A stretch of DNA of 48,746 bases from Allosalinactinospora lopnorensis (GTDB lineage: Bacteria; Actinomycetota; Actinomycetes; Streptosporangiales; Streptosporangiaceae). Location: contig NZ_LAJC01000042.1 in the NCBI RefSeq assembly GCF_000981225.1, positions 1-48,746 of the forward strand. The letters are read 5' to 3'. This document shows positions 12,548 to 48,451 of this stretch, one piece after another. Position numbers and translations under genes: made by a program. Within the stretch, counting starts at the first letter, position 1, and every line of letters starts with the position of its first letter. The notes under the pieces were generated by a model. That model worked only from the letters and a program-made list of their open reading frames with translations, did not search any database and had not been told where the DNA came from.

Positions 12548-13516
12548 GTGCCCGACTTCCGCAGGCCGCGTGCGGGCCGGTGGACGCCCTGGCGCACCGC
12601 CCCGCCGGCCCGTCTCATGCGGCATGCCACCGGGACGGTACTCGTGCGTGCCACACGCCTCCGGCTGCGCCCGGAGCACCTGTCCGTCCTGGACGGCCGC
12701 ACTCTGAACGTGGCGGCCGTGCTGTCCGAAGCACCGCCGGCCGGCCCCGCAGCGGTGGAGTTCGCGTCAGGGGACCGGAGAACGAGAGCCGCGGCCCGAA
12801 TGTCCCTCACAGCGGACGGTCGCGCCCGGATCGAGGCCACCGTCCGGCTGCGCGCCGGCGAGACGGAGAACCCCTCTGAACCCGCGGAGCGGCTGCCGGA
12901 GGTGGTGCTGGCTGCCGGGCGGTGGAGCATCCGTCTGCTGCTCAGCGGGGACGGCCGGACCCGGCGCCTGGCGCTGGCCGCCCCCACGGACTCCGCACGG
13001 TCGGGCCCGTACGACGGAGCGCGTTTCGCCGTGGTCCGCACGCTCTCGGGTGCGGCGGCCATCTCGGCGGCTCCGCCTCGGCCGGCGGCGAACGTGGGCT
13101 CCATTGTCCTTCGCCCCCACCGGGCGCAGGTGCGCGGCGAACTGCTCAACGCGGGCGCACCGGACACGATCGTCGCCGAGATGGCGCTGCGCGGCGGCCG
13201 GACGGTACACCCCATACGGCCGTTGCTCGCCCCCGGGCCCCACGGGAGCGGGTTCACCGTGGAACTCCCCCTCGCCGCGATGGCGGCCTCCTCGCCCTGC
13301 ATCGGTGCCGACCTCCACTGGGAACTGCGGTTCCGCACCGGAACCGGGAAGATCCTGCCCGTCCGCCGGGCGGACGTCGCCCCGCACGTCCTCCGCACCG
13401 CGCTCCCCGCCCAGACCGTACGGCCCGAGAACGGCCCCCCGGTCCTGCTGCGCCCGTACTACGCCGACGCCGCAACGCTGATCGTCGTCCTGACCGCACT
13501 TCCGCCCGGAGCCTGA
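12548..13516 (+). CDS. Unknown protein of a surface-polymer locus
   Basis: 322 aa from GTG 12548, with AAGGCGG upstream. There is no signal peptide or TM helix. The sequence is Arg/Ala/Pro-rich with short beta-type patterns in apparent repeats: RLRLRPEHLSVLDGRTLNVA, WSIRLLLSGDGRTRRLAL and SIVLRPHRAQVRGELLNAG. This suggests two or three beta-sandwich units. The end, PPVLLRPYYADAATLIVVL, resembles the tail of proteins found next to teichoic-acid-type glycosyltransferases in streptomycetes; that is a weak recollection. It is two bases upstream of the GT4-Stealth gene and certainly cotranscribed, so a role with that polymerase is likely. I do not recognise a named family. Confidence 0.75.
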   Translation: MPDFRRPRAGRWTPWRTAPPARLMRHATGTVLVRATRLRLRPEHLSVLDGRTLNVAAVLSEAPPAGPAAVEFASGDRRTRAAARMSLTADGRARIEATVRLRAGETENPSEPAERLPEVVLAAGRWSIRLLLSGDGRTRRLALAAPTDSARSGPYDGARFAVVRTLSGAAAISAAPPRPAANVGSIVLRPHRAQVRGELLNAGAPDTIVAEMALRGGRTVHPIRPLLAPGPHGSGFTVELPLAAMAASSPCIGADLHWELRFRTGTGKILPVRRADVAPHVLRTALPAQTVRPENGPPVLLRPYYADAATLIVVLTALPPGA

Positions 13517-13518
13517 CC

Positions 13519-16269
13519 ATGAGGATCACCTACCTGCTGACCGGAGGCGACGCCGTGGACGGCGCGGAGGCCGCCGTGCTCTCCCAGACCGCCCGCCTCG
13601 GCGAGCGCCACGAGGCCGAGATCATCACCGTCTTCCGGACCGTGCAGGACGGCGCTCCGGATCCCCGGGTACCGGTGCGGTACCTGGTGGACGCCCGCGC
13701 CCCGGTACAGCGGCCGACACGCGACTGCACGCTGGACGAGGAGACCTGCCGGACGCTGAGTGGCGAGCCCAGTGAGCTGCTTCCGGCGAGCCGGCGGAGC
13801 GGGTTCAGCCGGCTCACCGACATCGAGCTGCGTCACGCGCTGGCGCGTATCGGAACCGACGTGCTGGTGGGGACCACACCGGCGCTGACGTCGCTGATCG
13901 CCCGGTTGGCCCCCGCCGGTGCCGTCACGGTCGGCCAGGAGTACCGCGTCTCCGAGCTGCGCGGAGCCGGTACCGCCGCACTGCTGTCATACGCGCCGTG
14001 GCTGGACGCGCTGGTGGTGGTCAGCGAGCCCACCCGGTCGTGGTTGGCCGCGTCGCTGGGCGCGGCCGCGCCCCGGTTGGAGACCATCCCCCTGGCCGCG
14101 CCCTCAGGATTTCGGCCGCGCTCCGGCCTGCGGACCCGCAGGATCCTGGTCGCCCAGCCCCTGGTGCCCGAGAAACAGACCGATCACGCGATCCTGGCGT
14201 TCGCGAAGGTCGCCGCCGCTCACCCCGACTGGAGCCTCCGCATCCGCGGCAGCGGCCCGGACCTGCCCCGCCTCCGCGCCCTGGTCCACGCCCGCGAGCT
14301 GCACGACCGGGTCGAGTTCCTGGACGGGGACTGCACGGTCGCCGAGGAATGGGCCAAGGCCAGCATCTGCCTGCTGCTCTCCGGAACGGAGGCCTTCGGC
14401 CCGGCGCTGACCGAGGCGTTCGCGGCCGGGGTTCCCGCTGTCTGCTACGACTGCGCCAACGGCCCCGCCGAGGTGGTCCGGCACGGCACCGACGGTCTCC
14501 TCGTCCCGGCCGGCGACGTGGACGGGCTCGCCTCCGCGCTCGGCACACTCATGGCGGACGACGCCACACGGTTCGCTTGGGGCGCGGCCGCCCTCGACGG
14601 AGTGGACCGTTTCTCCCCCGAGCTCATCACCGCCCGCTGGGAGGCGCTCTACGCCGACCTTCTCACGATCGCGCCGCGCGATCGCGCCCGTGCCCGCGCC
14701 GACCGGGCCGCGCGGCACGCCGCCGCGACCGCGCGGCGCGGTGCGCTGTTCCAGGAGCTGCCATGGGAGCAGACGACGTCCCAGGTCCCGGACATGGCGG
14801 CCGAGGAGGAACGCGTCCACCGCCACCATCCGCACCTGATCCGCTCCGGCGGGCAACTCACCGGGATCCGCGACGACCTGCCGCCCCACGGCGCCCTCCG
14901 CGCCAACCTGGACCTGATCGTGAGGGCTCTGGACTACTTCGGGGTGCCGTACGCGCTGGTGCGGGACGACGGGCCGCGGCACCGGGTCATGGTCACCGAG
15001 GAGCGGAGCGCGGCGGCACTGGCGGCGCTGACCGCCGCCTACGACAACGAACCGGTCTACGCCAAGCCGCTGCGCCCGCGCGGCCGGCTCCCCCAGCCGG
15101 TGCTCGCCGGCATGGTCGGCGGTATGACCGGTATCTCCGGGGTCCGAGTGTTCCGGCCCGTCATCACCTCGGGAAGGACGCTGCGCTACGGCGCCGGCTA
15201 TGGCGCGGACCTGGAGTTCTGGTCCTGGGACGAGGACGGCGGCTGCTACGTCGCCCCGTGCCCGTCCGCCATCGGCGACCGGATTCCACCGGAGGCGATG
15301 ACGCCGGCGTCGCTGCGCGTGGCGGACCGGGACTACCCGAGCTACGAGCCTTTCGCCCGCCGCCTGCTGACCGACGTCGATTTCCCCGTCGACGCCGTCT
15401 ACACCTGGGACGGCGGTTCCGATCCGGCCGCGGGGGAACGGCCGGCGGACGCCGCCGGTGACCACCGGCCCGGCGACGCCGAGAAGCTCCGTTACTCGGT
15501 TCGCTCGGTCGCGATGTTCGCGCCGTGGATCAGGCGGATCTTCGTCGTGACCGAAAACGGGGCACCGGAGTGGCTGGAAACCGCCCACCCGGGCATCACC
15601 GTGCTCCCGCACCGGGAGCTGGCCGGCGCCGGCGGCACACTTCCCCTGTTCGCTCCGCTCCGCACCGGGCCCCGGCTGCACACCATCGACGGTCTCAGCG
15701 AGCACTTTCTCCATCTCCGCGCCGACGTCTTCATCGGGCGCCCTCTGGCGCCGGGGCACTTCTTCCATTCCAACGGGATGGCGAGGTTCTTCCGCTCCCC
15801 GGTCGCGGTTCCGCTCGGCAAACCCGCGCCGGACGATCCCGCGGACGTCGCCGCCGCGAAGCGGAACCGCGCGCTGATCGAGGACGCGTTCCAGCGCCGC
15901 ACCACCCACGGCTTCCGGTATGCGCCCTCCCCGCTACGCCGCTCGGTCCTCGCCGAGATCGAGGAGCGGTTTCCCTCCGAACTCGCGGCGACCGCGGACG
16001 CCTCCGCCTCGGCTTCGCTGCACCACCATTACGGCTACCTCACCGGCCGCTCCGTCCCGGGCGAACTCCGCTGCTCCCGGGTGGACGCGGGGGTCCCGGA
16101 ACAGCACCCTGAGCTCAACCGGCTGCTCCATGCCCGCGACCAGGACTCCTTCTGCGTCACCGAGTCCGCGTCGGAGCAAGTGCTCCCGGGCGAGCAGCGC
16201 CGGATGATCCACGCGTTCCTGCGGAGCTATTTCCCGATCGCCAGTCCCTACGAGCGGCCACCGCCGTGA
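13519..16269 (+). CDS. Glycosyltransferase family 4 fused to a Stealth (CR1-CR4) domain
   Basis: 916 aa from ATG 13519, two bases after the previous stop. Residues 1-385 form a GT4 domain: N-terminal MRITYLLTGG, donor-site ILVAQPLVPEKQTDHAI, and the EX7E motif EAFGPALTE (Glu291 and Glu299). An intermediate region (about 420-615) typical of actinobacterial Stealth proteins follows. Stealth signatures come next: CR1 DAVYTWDGGSDP (about 625), CR2 LRYSVRSVAMFAPWIRRIFV to LSEHFLHLRADVFIGRP (657-742), CR3 with SLHHHYGYLTGR, and CR4 DSFCVTESA (about 876-884). Stealth enzymes transfer sugar phosphates to build capsule or cell-wall polymers. Several positions usually Asn/Asp differ: CR1 WVDGSDP reads WDGGSDP, CR2 NDD reads RAD (734-736), CR4 ND reads TE (881-882). 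The Stealth half may therefore be catalytically altered while GT4 looks intact. Confidence 0.88.
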   Translation: MRITYLLTGGDAVDGAEAAVLSQTARLGERHEAEIITVFRTVQDGAPDPRVPVRYLVDARAPVQRPTRDCTLDEETCRTLSGEPSELLPASRRSGFSRLTDIELRHALARIGTDVLVGTTPALTSLIARLAPAGAVTVGQEYRVSELRGAGTAALLSYAPWLDALVVVSEPTRSWLAASLGAAAPRLETIPLAAPSGFRPRSGLRTRRILVAQPLVPEKQTDHAILAFAKVAAAHPDWSLRIRGSGPDLPRLRALVHARELHDRVEFLDGDCTVAEEWAKASICLLLSGTEAFGPALTEAFAAGVPAVCYDCANGPAEVVRHGTDGLLVPAGDVDGLASALGTLMADDATRFAWGAAALDGVDRFSPELITARWEALYADLLTIAPRDRARARADRAARHAAATARRGALFQELPWEQTTSQVPDMAAEEERVHRHHPHLIRSGGQLTGIRDDLPPHGALRANLDLIVRALDYFGVPYALVRDDGPRHRVMVTEERSAAALAALTAAYDNEPVYAKPLRPRGRLPQPVLAGMVGGMTGISGVRVFRPVITSGRTLRYGAGYGADLEFWSWDEDGGCYVAPCPSAIGDRIPPEAMTPASLRVADRDYPSYEPFARRLLTDVDFPVDAVYTWDGGSDPAAGERPADAAGDHRPGDAEKLRYSVRSVAMFAPWIRRIFVVTENGAPEWLETAHPGITVLPHRELAGAGGTLPLFAPLRTGPRLHTIDGLSEHFLHLRADVFIGRPLAPGHFFHSNGMARFFRSPVAVPLGKPAPDDPADVAAAKRNRALIEDAFQRRTTHGFRYAPSPLRRSVLAEIEERFPSELAATADASASASLHHHYGYLTGRSVPGELRCSRVDAGVPEQHPELNRLLHARDQDSFCVTESASEQVLPGEQRRMIHAFLRSYFPIASPYERPPP

Positions 16270-16784: not shown

Positions 16785-16877
16785 CTCCAGCGAGGGCCGG
16801 GGGTCGCCCCCCGAAGACACGAAGAGACGACCCCGCGAGCGCGGCCAACGCGCGAGCAGGGTCGTCTCAGAGTCGAG

Positions 16878-17248
16878 TGGAGGTGGCGGGAATCGAACCC
16901 GCGTCCTTCAGTGCCGCAACAGGGCTTCTCCGGGTGCAGTCTGTGCTGTCGTTCTGCTCGGCCCCAGCGCTCTCACAGACATGTCACTGACGGGCCCAGC
17001 CACGTAGATGTCCCGTTCAGGCCCCGTGGCCTGATCTGAACGGTAAGTCCTCTAACCGATGCCGGACACTGGGCCGAGGACGGGCCCAGGCCGACAGAGA
17101 CGCTATCGCTTAGGCAGCGAGAGCGAACTCAGTGCGCTTAGAGTTGGCACTTGATATTTAGCGCGAATGCAGGATTAACGAGGTCACACTCACAACCCTC
17201 GACCCGCTTCCCCTGGAACGATCACCAAAGTCGAAACCGATCACCCCC
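16878..17248 (-). ncRNA. ssrA: Transfer-messenger RNA (tmRNA)
   Basis: The 5' end (17248 leftwards) reads GGGGGTGATCGGTTTCGAC, the conserved tmRNA start. The 3' end has the T-arm GGACGCGGGTTCGATTCCCG and CCACCTCC. GGGGGUG and CACCUCC form a 7-bp acceptor stem that contains a G3-U pair, the alanyl-tRNA synthetase identity element. The discriminator A is at 16878 and CCA is not encoded (CTC follows). The resume frame 17148-17110 reads ANSKRTEFALAA then TAA, a degradation tag with the usual ALAA end; I recall the same tag from Thermobifida fusca. Mature length is about 371 nt. It works with SmpB (19757-20221, same strand) to rescue stalled ribosomes. Confidence 0.95.
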
Positions 17249-17731: not shown

Positions 17732-19738
17732 TCACTCCGAGGCTTCGGGGGGTGCGCCGAGGTCGGTCGCAGGGTCCTCGGAGTCCGCCCCCTGTTCGGC
17801 TTCCTCTTCCTCCGCGTCCTCGGCCGTCTCAGGGATGTTCTCCACATAGCCGCTGGGCAGGCGCAGCAGGAACTCGCCGACCGTGTTCTCGGCGTACTGG
17901 TTGAACCGCAGTGCGGGGTCCACCTCGATCGCGACGGCGACGGCCACGTCCCCCTGATAGCCGACGAACCACTGCACGGCGGTCTCCTCGCCGTCGACCT
18001 GCTGCACGGCCGTGGCCACCTGGCCGTGCACGGGGATGTCCCCCACGTTCGCGCCCGATGCGCTGCCCTCCACCACGGCGTCGCGCAGCATGTCCTGCAG
18101 CGCTGACACGGTTCCGGTGTCCAGTTCGCGGGCCGGTACGTTCTCGCCCTCCTCCTCGTCCGAGACGGCGAGTCGCGGAGGGTTCCAGGAACCGCTGGCG
18201 ACCCCGCCGGCCGCCAGGGCCATGGTGAGCGGACTCACCGTGACGTTATCGGCGCCGACCATCGCGGCCGCCAAATCCTCCTCGGACCGCGGAACGGTGA
18301 ACTCTCCGCTGTGGGTCGGCACGGAGAGCCGCCAGTCGCCTCCCACACCGAAGTCGGCGGCGCTCGACGCCAGGGCGTCGGCGCCTACCTCCTCTCCGAG
18401 GCCAGCGAACGCGGTGGTGCAGGTGTAGGCGAAGTCGCGGGCCAGGTCCGGGCTACCCCACAACGCGGTGTTGTTGGGGTTGGTGAACCTGCGATCCCCG
18501 ACCTGGCGCTGCTGGTCGCACGGGACGGTCTGGTCGGGTGCGGCGGCGCCGGACTCCAGCGCGGCCGCGGTCGAGACGATGGTGAACACCTCGCCCGGCC
18601 GGTACTCCTTGGTGAACGCACCGTCGTCGTCGGTGCTGCCCGGCTGGCCGGCGGCGGCGAGGATGTGGCCGTTGCGCGCGTCCACGGCGACCAGGTAGCC
18701 GCTGTCCGGTAGTGCCTCCAGCACTCCTTCCGCGGCTTCCTGGGCATCGGCGTCGATCGTGGCGCTGAGCGACCCGCTCTGCTCCCCCGGCCAGGTCTCC
18801 AGCACATCGGTCTGCTCGCCGTCGCCGTCCAGCGTCACGACCTCGGTGTTGGCGGTGCCGGCGAGCCGCTGTTGGAAGGCGCTCTGCAGGCCGCTCAGCC
18901 CGACCGTGTCGCCGGCCTGGTACGGGCCCGCGACACGGGAGGAGACGTTGTGCCCGACGGTGCCGGCCACCTCGCCGACGGTGGCCTGCGCCTGCTCGGG
19001 GTACAGCGACATGGTGATCTGGCTGGTCTCGACACCGGAGATCCGCTTGGCTTTTCGGGTTACCGCACCCTCGACGTCCCGCTTGCGCACCAGGACGAGG
19101 GGCTGGAACTGCTCCGGAGGGGCCGAGCGGACCCGGTTGAGCAGCGGATCGGGGTCCTCGTCGAGGAGTTCGGCGAGGTCGTTGACGCCTTTCTCTGTGT
19201 CCTCCATGTCGGCGGGGACCACACCGAACGCGGTGACCTGCTGCTCCGCGACGAGCGGGCGCCCGTTCCGGTCGAAGATCTGCCCCCGGTCGGGGACGTC
19301 GTAGTTCACCGCGAGCCGCTCGCCCTCTTCGAGCTTGGGATGGATGACGTCGGGCGCCCAGGTGATCTGCCACCCCTCGGCGTTCTGCTCCAGCCCCATG
19401 GACCCGGTGTACTGCCACACGGGGTCGCCGATGCCGAGGTCGGCCTGGGCGTGGAACTCCGCCGTGCCGGTGTCGCCCTGCTGGTCGAGGCCGCCGAGTT
19501 CGAAACGCAGAGCCGCCAGGTCAAGCTGGTCGTGCACCTGTTCGAGGGCGCCCGCCACCTCCTCGACCTCACCCGTCGTGTGCCGTGCCGCGGCCTCGTA
19601 CTCACCGGCCTGCCAGTCGATCAGGAACGCGCGGACCGCGACCTCCGGACTGGGGTGCGGAGTGCACCCTGCGATGGCGGCCGCTAAGGCGACACTGGTA
19701 CCGACGACTACGGCTCGACGAAGATGGCGGGGGGGCAC
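17732..19738 (-). CDS. Penicillin-binding-protein-like lipoprotein lacking all catalytic motifs
   Basis: 668 aa from GTG 19738, with AAAGGA upstream. A lipoprotein signal with Cys25 (AAAIAGC) is followed by an NTF2-like MecR1-type domain (about 30-140), a PBP dimerisation region (about 150-310, with VPDRGQIFDRNGRPL) and a transpeptidase fold (about 330-640). The fold is recognisable, but each active-site motif is changed. PGSTFK reads PGEVFT (381-386; Ser to Glu, Lys to Thr), SCN reads TCT (439-441), and KTGT reads QVAT (573-576). The frame is intact and the surroundings are well conserved, so this is not a sequencing effect. An acidic tail follows. The gene starts 18 bp after smpB and follows ftsE-ftsX. 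It should be an extracytoplasmic membrane-tethered protein that cannot form the acyl-enzyme, perhaps a ligand-binding or regulatory partner in division. Confidence 0.88.
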   Translation of the reverse strand: MPPRHLRRAVVVGTSVALAAAIAGCTPHPSPEVAVRAFLIDWQAGEYEAAARHTTGEVEEVAGALEQVHDQLDLAALRFELGGLDQQGDTGTAEFHAQADLGIGDPVWQYTGSMGLEQNAEGWQITWAPDVIHPKLEEGERLAVNYDVPDRGQIFDRNGRPLVAEQQVTAFGVVPADMEDTEKGVNDLAELLDEDPDPLLNRVRSAPPEQFQPLVLVRKRDVEGAVTRKAKRISGVETSQITMSLYPEQAQATVGEVAGTVGHNVSSRVAGPYQAGDTVGLSGLQSAFQQRLAGTANTEVVTLDGDGEQTDVLETWPGEQSGSLSATIDADAQEAAEGVLEALPDSGYLVAVDARNGHILAAAGQPGSTDDDGAFTKEYRPGEVFTIVSTAAALESGAAAPDQTVPCDQQRQVGDRRFTNPNNTALWGSPDLARDFAYTCTTAFAGLGEEVGADALASSAADFGVGGDWRLSVPTHSGEFTVPRSEEDLAAAMVGADNVTVSPLTMALAAGGVASGSWNPPRLAVSDEEEGENVPARELDTGTVSALQDMLRDAVVEGSASGANVGDIPVHGQVATAVQQVDGEETAVQWFVGYQGDVAVAVAIEVDPALRFNQYAENTVGEFLLRLPSGYVENIPETAEDAEEEEAEQGADSEDPATDLGAPPEASE

Positions 19739-19756: not shown

Positions 19757-20221
19757 TCAACGCCGACGGCGGAGTGCGCGCTCCATATCTCGCTGCGCCT
19801 CGCGTGCGGCGATGTCCTGGCGTTTGTCGTACTGGCGTTTACCGCGGGCCAAGGCCAGCTCCACCTTGGCCTTGCCCTCGCTGAAATACAGCGACAGCGG
19901 CACCAGCGTACGGCCCGTTTCGCGGGTCTTTGCCACCAACTTGGCGATCTCTTCGCGGTGCAGGAGTAGCTTACGCGGCCGCCGGGCGGCGTGGTTGGTC
20001 CATGTCCCGTGTGCGTACTCGGGGATATGGACGTTCTCCAACCACACCTCTCCCCGCTTGATGTGCGCGAATCCGTCCACGAGAGAGGCGCGCCCGGCCC
20101 GCAGCGACTTCACCTCGGTACCGGTGAGCACGATGCCCGCCTCGTAGGTGTCGTCGATGTGGTAGTCGTGCCGGGCCCGCCGGTTCTGGGCGATGAATTT
20201 ACGCCCTTTCTCCCGTGGCAC
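19757..20221 (-). CDS. smpB: SsrA-binding protein SmpB
   Basis: 154 aa, normal length. It binds tmRNA and delivers it to stalled ribosomes. Family hallmarks are [20 protein letters not shown] at the N-terminus, [19 protein letters not shown], and [20 protein letters not shown], ending in the basic tail [14 protein letters not shown] then RRRR that enters the decoding centre. The start is GTG 20221, with AAGGAAAG upstream. It lies 55 bp downstream of ftsX and 18 bp upstream of the PBP-like gene, all minus strand. Its RNA partner ssrA is 2.5 kb downstream in the same direction. Confidence 0.96.
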
Positions 20222-20276: not shown

Positions 20277-21185
20277 TCAGACCCGGAGGTAGCGCCGGAG
20301 TGTCAGGAACGCCGCAACGGTACAGAGGAGTATGCCCAGAATCAGCGAGACTCCGATGACGTACATCACCGCTCCGATGCCGAGGGTGATGTCGAACTGG
20401 AACCAGTCCTGGATCCGATCCAGCAGGAAGAACCTCGTCGCGACGATGAACCCTGAGGCGAAGATACCGCCGATCAAGCCCGCGACGGCGGCTTCCAGCA
20501 GGAAAGGCAGCTGGATATAGAAGTTGGACGCGCCGACCAGCCTCATGATGCCCGTCTCCCGGCGCCGGCTGTAGGCGGACAACCGGATGGTGTTGCCGAT
20601 GAGTAACGCCGCAGCGGCCAACTGGATGAAGGACACGACGAGCGCCGCCCATTTCAGGCCGTCGAGCAGGCTGAAGAACTGCTCGAGCACCTGCTGGTCG
20701 TCGGAGATCGAGTCGACCCCCGGACGGCCCTGTACCGCGTCCTGTACTTCCTGGTACTGGGTCGGATCCTGCAACTGCACACGGAAGTTGTCCGGAATGT
20801 CGCCCTCTTGGGCGGCCTCGACCAGCGCATCGTGGTTGGAGAAGCGCTCCTGGAAGTCCTGCCAGGCCTCGGACGCGGTCACGTACTCGACGTTCGCGAC
20901 CTGGGGCATTCCCTCCAAGTCGTCCTGGATCTCGGTCCGCTCCTCATCGGTGGCGGCTCCGCTCTCCTCACACGTCGGGGACAGCGACGTGTCCGTGCAC
21001 ATGTAGATGGTGAGCGAGATCCGCTCGTCCCAGTAGCGGCGCATCTCGGTCACCTGCTGGTTGATGAGCAGACCGCCACCGAACAGGGCGAGCGAGATGG
21101 CCACCGTGGTGATGACCGCGACGGTCATCGTGAGATTTCGGCGTAGGCCGATCCAGGTTTCAGAAAGTACGAATTGTGCGCGCAT
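20277..21185 (-). CDS. ftsX: Cell-division ABC transporter permease FtsX
   Basis: 302 aa from ATG 21185. A short cytoplasmic start ([15 protein letters not shown]) leads into TM1 (about 20-42). An extracellular domain of about 125 residues has a Cys63-Cys72 pair ([12 protein letters not shown]) that could form a disulfide. TM2-TM4 follow, with [20 protein letters not shown] between TM2 and TM3, the coupling-helix region that meets FtsE. FtsEX does not transport a known substrate; it activates peptidoglycan hydrolases during division. Here the extracytoplasmic partner is not obvious, but a PBP-like lipoprotein lies two genes downstream. No strong ribosome site is seen before the ATG. Confidence 0.94.
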
Positions 21186-21263: not shown

Positions 21264-21952
21264 TCAGTAGGCCTGGCCGTAGACGCCGCGCGTCTGGTCC
21301 CGGACGACCACACCCTCCTCGAGCTCGATGACGCGCTTGCGCATCGAGTCGACGATGGCGGCATCGTGCGTTGCCATGACGACGGTCGTACCGGTGCGAT
21401 TGATTCGGTCGAGCACCTTCATGATGCCGATCGACGTGGCGGGATCGATGTTCCCGGTGGCTCATCGGCCAGCAGGATCTGTGGCCGGTTCACGAAGGCC
21501 CGGGCGATCGCGACCCGCTGCTGCTCACCTCCCGAGAGCTCATCGGGCATGCGATCGGACTTGCCTTCCAGGCCGACCAGCTCGACGACCTCCGGAACCA
21601 CCTTCTTGATGAATCGCCGGGGCTTCCCGATCACTTCCAGGGCGAACGCGACGTTCTCGAAGACGTTCTTGTTCGGCAGGAGGCGGAAATCCTGGAACAC
21701 GCAGCCGATACGGCGCCGCAGGTGGGGCACCTTCCAGTTGGACAAGCGCGCGAGATCCTTACCCGCGACGTGCACCTTGCCCTTGTTGGGCTTCTCCTCC
21801 TTGAGGATCAGCCTGAGGAACGTTGACTTACCCGAGCCCGAGGGACCGACGAGGAAGACGAACTCTCCCTTCTCGACGTCGATGGAAACGTTCTCGAGGG
21901 CGGGGTGCTTCTGGGTCAGGTAGACCTTGGTGACGTTTTCAAAGTGAATCAC
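21264..21952 (-). pseudogene. ftsE: Cell-division ATP-binding protein FtsE, broken by one missing base
   Basis: GTG 21952 starts [12 protein letters not shown]. Walker [11 protein letters not shown]-loop [20 protein letters not shown], signature LSGGEQQRV and Walker B ILLADEP are all in frame. At 21459-21460 one base is missing. The coding strand reads GAG-CC-ACC-GGG where GAG-CCN-ACC-GGG is expected. After the shift the frame continues [17 protein letters not shown] and [12 protein letters not shown], ending at TGA 21264. The span is 689 bases; 690 would give 229 aa, the normal size. As read, the protein ends soon after Walker B and loses the H-loop. Because ftsE is normally needed for growth and the rest is perfectly conserved, sequence error is most likely. 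It is upstream of ftsX. Confidence 0.92.
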
Positions 21953-22174
21953 AGGAGCATCACAAGGTTCTCGAGGGTTGGGGGCACCCAGGCGGACGTA
22001 ATGTTTCCGCGCAGGGCAGGACTGGCCACGGGGCCAACCGACAGTGTAGAGGGGAACGCAACCCCGGATGTCCAGATCGAGGAGGTTCCTCACTTGCACC
22101 GCCACCGAGGGAAGACATGGGGGTAACACCCCTACGCTGCACCTCAGCCGCGGTTGTCCACGGCCGACCGTCAG

Positions 22175-22257: not shown

Positions 22258-23369
22258 TCAGCCGGCGCTCGCACCGCTCCGAAGCCATCGGATCTCCGCG
22301 TCGATAAAGGAATCGATCTCACCGTCCAGCACCGCACCCGTGTTGCCGGTCTCAGCATTGGTGCGTACGTCCTTCACGCTCTGGTAGGGGTGCAGCACGT
22401 AGTTGCGCATCTGGGTTCCCCAGCTGCTGACCGATTCACCCCGGAGCTCGTCGATCTCGGCCTGCTCCTCCCTGCGCTTGCGCTCCAGCAGCCTTGCCTG
22501 CAACACGGACATCGCGCTCGCGCGGTTCTGGATCTGGCTCTTCTCGTTCTGGCACGAGACGACGATGCCGGTGGCAGATGGGTGATGCGCACGGCCGAGT
22601 CCGTGGTGTTGACGCTCTGGCCGCCCGGACCGCTGGAACGGAAGACGTCGATCCGCAGCTCGTTCTCCTCGATGTCGATGTGGTCGCTCTGCTCCACGAC
22701 CGGCACGACGTCGACGCCGGCGAACGAGGTCTGGCGCCGGTTCTGGTTGTCGAACGGCGAGATCCGCACCAACCGGTGCGTGCCGTGCTCGCCGCGGAGC
22801 GTGCCGTAGGCGAACTGCGCCTTGACGGCGAACGTCGTGGACTTGATCCCGGCTTCCTCCGCGTAGGAGGTGTCGTAGATCTCCGTCGGGTATCCGTGAC
22901 GCTCGGCCCAGCGGAGGTACATGCGCTGCAGCATCTGCGCCCAGTCGGCGGCGTCGATCCCCCCGGCCTGCGCGTTGATCGTCACCAGGGCCTCACGTTC
23001 GTCGTAAGGACCGTTGAGCAGGGTTCGAACCTCCAGCTCACCGATGTCCTTGCGCAGGGAGCGCAGTTCGGTGTCGGCCTCGGCCCGGGTGTCGGGGTCG
23101 TCCTCCGTCTCCGCGAGCTCGTAGAGCACGCTGAGGTCGTCGAGACGCTGCCGGATGTTCCCGACCTTGGTGACCACGGACTCCAGATGGGAGAGCCTGC
23201 GAGTGACCTTCTGCGCGTTCTCCTGATCGTTCCAGAGCTCAGGGTCGGCAGACTGCTCGCGCAACTGCGCGATCTCCGTGTGCTTGGCGTCGAGGTCCAG
23301 CACGGACTCCACGCTCGCCAGCGTGGACGAGAGTTCTTTGATCTGTTCTGCGGGGTCTTGGTCTGCCAC
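22258..23369 (-). pseudogene. prfB: Peptide chain release factor 2, broken by one missing base
   Basis: GTG 23369 starts [20 protein letters not shown]. The coiled-coil domain 1, the tRNA-mimic domain and the catalytic GGQ ([14 protein letters not shown]) are in frame. At 22573-22574 one base is missing: the coding strand reads CTG-CC-ACC-GGC where CTG-CCN-ACC-GGC is expected after VRITHLP. The correct frame resumes [16 protein letters not shown] and ends at 22258 ([12 protein letters not shown]). With one more base the gene is 371 codons, normal for RF2. The site is near codon 265 and unrelated to the E. coli-type autoregulatory +1 shift, which is near codon 26. The same flanking bases as in ftsE suggest a systematic sequence error. 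RF2 releases peptides at UGA and UAA and is essential. Confidence 0.92.
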
Positions 23370-47720: not shown

Positions 47721-48451
47721 AAGACCCCCTATTGTCGCGGGGCCATCGCCGTACGATGACCCGGCTCTCTAGCTATTGCCCCACACGCTGCGCGGGTGGG
47801 CGAACGCTCCCGTTCCTCCTCTCTGTCACCGCGGGTTCACTCCTCAGGTGTGGAATCCCGTATACCCGCAGTACCGGTAGTATTCACCCCGCTGAAGCCG
47901 AGTAGCCACCCTGATCAGCCGTTAGTCGCCGCCATCGGCTCCTGGGAGGACATCGGGGGCGGCCGGCTCGAGACGGCGGGGGCCGGAAACGAATGTGCAC
48001 CCGTCCGGCCGACCTGGTCTTCGTCCCCACATCCGCCTGCTGAGGGGTTTGCCGCGCTTGAGTGCGACTACTGCCCTTCTCCCGGTTCGGGAGGACATCG
48101 GGTCCCCCCGCGAGGCAGGTCTTACCTCTAAGCCGCACCGTGATCGGTCGACGAAAAGTCGCCTTACGTGGGCCGTTTCGCCTGCGGCTGGCATCGGCTT
48201 GCCGGACAGGCGCCCCCACGGGGACGCGATGTCCAGCGCAACCACGGACCCGGACGGGTGCCATGCCCTGAACGCTAACCCGAGAATCCGCAGATGTCAG
48301 GTACTACGTGTCCACTACCTCCAGCCGAAACGCCCGGCTTCTCCCAGAGAACACCGAATCCGGGAGAAAAACGGAAAGAGATGGCGGTGAGGTAAAAGGT
48401 TCTTGGCGCTCCGCCGCGAACCGTTTGACACCGGCCCCGCGCACTCAGGGG
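47721..48451. other. 731-bp gap between comF and hpf
   Basis: No frame here is convincing, and GC is visibly lower than in the genes. It contains a 14-base direct repeat GGGAGGACATCGGG (47944-47957 and 48089-48102), a hairpin CTCCCG-GTT-CGGGAG (48079-48093), and on the minus strand GGGTAT (47867-47862), about 140 bases before hpf, which resembles a SigB-type -10. A long regulated hpf leader or a small RNA is possible; neither is shown. Confidence 0.5.

Follow-up and report, generated by a model that had tools for sequence, protein, structure and literature searches.

The minus-strand gene at 17732..19738 of the window (the whole stretch of DNA analysed, 48,746 nucleotides of Allosalinactinospora lopnorensis) codes for a protein that is, by homology, a class B penicillin-binding protein (PBP) of the MecA_N type and, by its motifs, not an active PBP. 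Judged from the alignments, it is a retained pseudoenzyme, with its catalytic residues lost throughout a clade that remains under purifying selection. Its role is probably regulatory, or that of a docking protein, rather than enzymatic. We put the probability at roughly 0.55 that this non-catalytic class B PBP has been kept as a membrane-tethered protein acting through its NTF2-like and pedestal half.

Domain architecture and genomic setting

The first-pass annotation had read the frame as intact, and it is indeed open on the minus strand from a GTG start (19738 to 17732), specifying 668 aa. The hydrophobic N-terminus and a lipobox-like I22-A-G-C25 (19664..19675, minus strand; read from the translation) mark the product as a predicted lipoprotein with Cys25 as the putative site of lipidation; of the 81 aligned rows, 79 have a residue at position 25, and in 78 it is a cysteine. 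All three domains of a MecA_N-type class B PBP are detected by Pfam above the cut-off, each on the minus strand: the MecA_N (NTF2-like) domain (residues 31-139; 19322..19648), within which D100-L101-G102 (19433..19441) is conserved across the degenerate group; the PBP_dimer domain or pedestal (residues 148-311; 18806..19297); and the Transpeptidase domain (residues 347-607; 17918..18700), whose fold is predicted to be kept with its catalytic residues gone. The earlier recognition of MecR1-NTF2, dimerisation and transpeptidase folds also agrees with an AlphaFold model (mean pLDDT 88.5), with which Foldseek matched 7bn9, PBP5 and PBP2a over its length. By sequence, B. subtilis PBP3 (7bn9) and E. 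faecium PBP5 are the best relatives of solved structure, with PBP2a a weaker match. The VIA-align matches, which mostly span residues 140-634 and barely cover the NTF2-like domain, include the Atopobium parvulum transpeptidase 4r1g_B (Z 40.9, rmsd 3.0, 369 residues aligned) and M. tuberculosis PbpA 3upp_A (Z 38.7, rmsd 3.1, 375 aligned). The protein ends in an acidic tail of low model confidence (residues 627-668; 17735-17860), which differs in its letters within the Nocardiopsis-like group and is short or absent in others.

SxxK, SxN and KTG, the marks of an active class B PBP, are all absent. Translation and alignment place PGEVFT (381-386; 18581..18598, minus strand) at the former SxxK site, TCT (439-441; 18416..18424, minus strand) at the former SxN site and QVAT (573-576; 18011..18022, minus strand) at the former KTG(T) site, and the first-pass numbering of these replacements is exact. 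Contig C43 of the same genome still encodes an active MecA_N paralogue with GSSFK, SCN and KTG, which may have freed the window copy. In the active MecA_N paralogues (L004, L188-L196) the pedestal-aligned stretch is much shorter, at 81-91 residues versus 164.

Directly upstream on the minus strand lies smpB (19757..20221), which ends 18 bp before the GTG start, a gap that suggests a single transcript. It is preceded by ftsX with its extracellular domain (20277..21185, minus strand; 55 bp before smpB), ftsE (21267..22129, minus strand) and prfB (22261..23369, minus strand), and the ssrA gene for tmRNA (16875..17248, minus strand) occupies the downstream flank. The first-pass placement of the gene after ftsE-ftsX-smpB is thus right in its order, but the ftsE frame is broken near its 3' end (~21440-21461, seen against L104 and L113), as is that of prfB (~22572-22590, seen against L104, L113, L122 and L128). 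Since prfB is normally essential, both breaks look like indels of a draft assembly. Elsewhere in the window are a raiA RNA (48000-48258, minus strand; RF03072, 145.4 bits) and a single ORF of 1115 aa (12922-16269, plus strand) combining a Glycosyltransferase group 1 domain with Stealth CR2, CR3 and CR4.

The locus, whose conservation had been left as a question, is stable among the best 80 of at least 394 relatives, a set spanning Nocardiopsis, Streptomonospora and Thermobifida to Actinomadura, Nonomuraea, Microbispora and Planotetraspora, genera that we take to correspond to the Nocardiopsaceae, Streptosporangiaceae and Thermomonosporaceae under NCBI names. Of these 80 loci, 79 have smpB directly upstream, the exception (L152) beginning at the edge of its contig; 75 (all except L152, L154, L173, L175 and L183) have the full set of prfB, ftsE, ftsX and smpB upstream and co-oriented; and 74 have a tmRNA gene in the stretch, ~4 kb away in the case of L147. 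The first-pass remark that no S41 peptidase gene separates ftsX from smpB holds for the window but not for the order as a whole, as Actinomadura craniellae (L154), in which prfB is on the opposite strand, has an S41 peptidase with a PDZ domain at this place. Including this locus, 9 of the same 80 have an ftsX-smpB gap of 1.2-1.35 kb, so the presence of the S41 gene may vary within the order.

Extent and origin of the motif loss

Of the 150 family genomes, that of the window among them, 148 have a match with an E-value of 1.1e-76 or better; the exceptions are G055, whose contig ends 195 bp after smpB, and G104, whose best match reaches 6.1e-45. Five of the listed best matches (G015, G019, G053, G061, G081) run over one stop codon, which, with frames of 701-867 codons, is probably at the variable C-terminus. 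Across 59 distinct loci of this family, neither K386, nor K573, nor the SxN pair occurs even once, and a serine stands at 383 in three. This set comprises L012-L062 and L064-L072 (60 rows, L068 repeating L053), an earlier motif alignment having covered 49 family loci (L012-L060, with L044 partial). The best 80 of at least 394 relatives, which overlap with it (L160/L184, L151/L043, L147/L042), give the same picture: the SxxK lysine is found in 0/80, its serine in 4/80, SxN in 5/80 and the KTG lysine in none of the 78 readable proteins, two being cut off before KTG. Residue 573 is a glutamine in the Nocardiopsis group and mostly a valine or isoleucine elsewhere. Within the order, the motifs are absent from every aligned protein except those of one sister family. 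Hence, as far as these alignments reach, the loss is fixed in the loci examined, in answer to a question that the first-pass annotation had posed.

Orthologues with intact motifs, which that annotation had named as evidence against its reading, do exist at the locus (G377-G379, G155, G231), but only outside the window's family; they accordingly date the loss and leave the pseudo-transpeptidase unrefuted. In family f46 of the same order, all three genomes have an intact PBP (PGSTFK or PGSTFKI, SCN and KTG) after ftsE-ftsX-smpB, with prfB seen in two of them, and intact PBPs follow the same three genes in G155 and G231, which belong to two families of other orders. Family f45 carries a half-lost form in this position, with the serine kept, the lysine replaced by glutamine, SCT at the second motif and no KTG, from which we infer a stepwise loss. 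In a tree of 67 rows calculated with the motif columns removed, the 27 degenerate proteins, that of f45 included, fall on one side of a branch with support of 100/100; L057 forms a long branch, and 12 of the 13 rows labelled as paralogues group apart, L199 lying among the relatives. As the degenerate rows form one group, these sequences are most simply explained by an active PBP having stood at the locus first and by a single loss of catalysis on the stem of f1, the window's family, together with f45.

A second, separate degenerate MecA_N PBP occurs in family f13, in all three genomes looked at (L091 in G161, L217 in G183 and L218 in G215). Here the SxxK serine and the KTG lysine are each replaced by threonine and SCN is kept, and every one of these genomes also has an intact copy (L087, L086 and L088). 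In yet another arrangement (L100, in G365), an intact PBP lies downstream of smpB with the tmRNA gene in between; the other listed genomes of its genus, g85, gave weaker best matches.

Selection and the shift of conservation

Over the three domains, dN/dS in 19 disjoint pairs of close relatives ranges from 0.03 to 0.61 and is always below 1. The transpeptidase value exceeds that of the NTF2-like domain in just 9 of the 19 pairs, with one tie; thus, recent dN/dS fails to separate the domains, and the shift between them is visible only in deeper comparisons. For these we set 22 degenerate rows (with L057, L044, nearest copies and others left out) against 25 relatives (with L087 and L201 left out). 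Mean pairwise identity in the degenerate proteins is 0.51 for the NTF2-like domain, 0.43 for the pedestal and 0.43 for the transpeptidase domain, whereas in the relatives the corresponding values are 0.33, 0.40 and 0.51. The NTF2-like domain is more conserved than the transpeptidase domain in 225 of 231 degenerate pairs versus 1 of 300 pairs of relatives; the partly degenerate L091 is among the 25 relatives, here as in the analysis of lost positions, and without it the latter count becomes 1/276. The same contrast is seen in disjoint pairs (9/11 degenerate versus 0/12 relatives), and the difference persists in each of the four pedestal-identity bins. In a lineage control, ten active paralogues from the order itself, one of which (L194) has KSG instead of KTG, show the NTF2-like domain ahead in 0 of 45 pairs.

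Individual positions follow the same trend. Fifteen that are conserved in at least 90% of the 25 relatives fall below 30% in the degenerate group (217, 254, 321, 383, 386, 441, 497, 573-577, 588, 589 and 607), and eight of them sit in or directly after the motifs; position 439 does not qualify, since a serine is retained in 28 of 81 rows. Conversely, six NTF2 residues (V35, R36, F38, Q43, D73, D100) and four located within the pedestal or immediately ahead of it (R141, S205, P207, L214) are near-invariant in the degenerate group and not in the relatives. D100 and L101 are present in 80 of 81 rows, with one gap, and G102 in 78, D100 not being conserved in the 25 relatives. In the 22 degenerate rows, the seven former motif positions are about as variable as average transpeptidase positions (entropy percentiles 0.32-0.77). 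G382, F385, C440, S502 and P503 are still present, and a comparison of conserved positions between the degenerate group and the 25 relatives uncovered no newly conserved set of polar residues in the cleft region. On the evidence of these alignments, selection now guards the front end of the protein more than its old active site.

Candidate functions and comparison with known systems

We propose that a MecA_N-type class B PBP lost its catalysis, most simply once, and was retained. A lipid would anchor it outside the membrane, and its NTF2-like domain and pedestal would bind cell-wall or divisome partners; candidates for these are an active class B PBP or SEDS polymerase, a hydrolase system, or peptidoglycan. 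The dead transpeptidase domain would then serve as a body or spacer. We place the function in the front half since a ligand bound in the old cleft would be expected to hold its positions constant, and they are not fixed. Counting against such a role, class B PBPs usually contact SEDS proteins by a transmembrane helix, which a lipoprotein would be without. The protein could act like the catalytically dead PBP 2B (S309A) of B. subtilis, described as still supporting division when another PBP supplies catalysis (PMC5656894), or SpoVD (S311A) of C. difficile, for which partial support under the same condition is described (PMC12713402); it is the ability of class B PBPs with catalysis mutated away to support division that makes a binding role plausible. 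PBP-lipo of M. abscessus, which is described as needing its catalytic serine (PMC9170245), speaks against a non-catalytic role. A more specific version of the proposal, which we advance only tentatively, is that the NTF2-like domain with D100-L101-G102 provides the working surface by which the lipoprotein docks to FtsEX or to an active septal PBP/SEDS complex, timing the synthesis or splitting of the septum, with co-expression with FtsEX serving division or sporulation septation. In that case, a large clade would have turned a transpeptidase into a purely regulatory, non-enzymatic protein.

The protein could instead be a non-enzymatic sensor or anchor of peptidoglycan, contacting it through the NTF2-like domain or through an NTF2-pedestal site such as that of PBP2a. 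That the NTF2-like domain is the most conserved part fits this idea, as do the fold matches to the PBP2a entries 3zfz and 3zg5, which by their titles have muramic acid or a peptidoglycan analogue at an allosteric site, and the NTF2 domain of Campylobacter Pgp2, which is described as binding peptidoglycan (PMC8038945). Pfam detects no signalling output domain in the protein, and we regard this possibility as unlikely.

The first-pass annotation had also pictured an activator or partner of FtsEX. In such a scheme the NTF2-like domain would meet the extracellular domain of FtsX and regulate a septal hydrolase, somewhat as EnvC does. The gene order behind the proposal is real: the four upstream genes are in place at 75 of the best 80 of at least 394 relatives, and the product is a predicted outward-facing lipoprotein encoded 18 bp from smpB. 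Its distances correlate with those of FtsX after control for SmpB and FtsE (0.35-0.76 over 75 rows, the five loci L146, L148, L152, L153 and L173 being omitted). However, the same order is found where the PBP is intact (L083, L090, L185-L187), so that it is ancestral and older than the loss; smpB adjoins more closely than ftsX, tying the gene at least as much to smpB; and the correlation is not specific to the extracellular part of FtsX, with the NTF2-like domain and pedestal correlating more with its membrane part. Further points against it are the FtsEX of M. tuberculosis, described as binding the hydrolase RipC directly (PMC10694151), and eight NlpC/P60 matches elsewhere in the genome, two of them perhaps pieces of one gene. 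We consider a partnership of this kind unlikely.

Non-covalent sensing of β-lactams or stem peptides in the old active site, another of the first-pass suggestions, could appeal to the predicted retention of the transpeptidase fold and to the five residues that remain. Yet the seven former motif positions vary like the average and hold different residues in different subgroups, and the cleft region has gained no conserved polar set; this variability disfavours a cleft-based sensor, which we judge very improbable. The lack of a conserved polar set also speaks against a new catalytic activity in the cleft. Least credible is a decaying relic: catalysis is gone and, at matched pedestal identity, the transpeptidase domain shows less conservation than that of active relatives, but the gene recurs at high similarity in 148 of 150 family genomes, its NTF2-like domain is more conserved than in those relatives, and dN/dS below 1 together with recurrence in independent genomes rules out a relic or an assembly artefact, despite the two broken frames nearby.

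Among the matches listed in a search of titles and abstract openings, mostly outside subscription journals, there is no description of a natural, clade-wide inactive class B PBP, and the main text of a review of Streptomyces PBPs names neither Nocardiopsis nor Thermobifida (PMC6273383). Laboratory-made dead class B PBPs already show that these proteins have structural roles besides catalysis. Here, the two appear to have been separated by nature across a large actinobacterial clade with complex development; this offers a clean system for studying the role and partner of the non-enzymatic part. The reversal of conservation suggests that the NTF2-like domain in PBP2a-type proteins has a function of its own.

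The window protein has the same order of NTF2-like, pedestal and transpeptidase domains as B. subtilis PBP 3 (7bn9), E. faecium PBP5 and S. aureus PBP2a, which rank at or near the top of its sequence and Foldseek matches and are active PBPs with SxxK, SxN and KTG; it differs from them in being without the motifs, and its domain conservation is reversed relative to active actinobacterial relatives. MecR1 and BlaR1 have a PBP-like extracellular domain that keeps the acylated serine, and they carry a membrane protease. In contrast, the window protein has no acylatable SxxK and, by Pfam, no membrane metalloprotease domain. The EnvC-type adaptors of FtsEX are cases of a degenerate cell-wall enzyme that has become a regulator; their fold differs, and the likeness lies in the degenerate cell-wall enzyme and in the location of the gene near ftsEX. 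Mycobacterial PBP-lipo (Rv2864c, MAB_3167c), which we liken to the window protein by description, is likewise a class B PBP from actinobacteria with a septal role and is called a lipoprotein, but its S364 is reported to be needed in M. abscessus and a transmembrane helix is predicted (PMC9170245). Finally, PBP 2B S309A and SpoVD S311A are laboratory mutants, whereas the window protein represents a natural state fixed in a clade.
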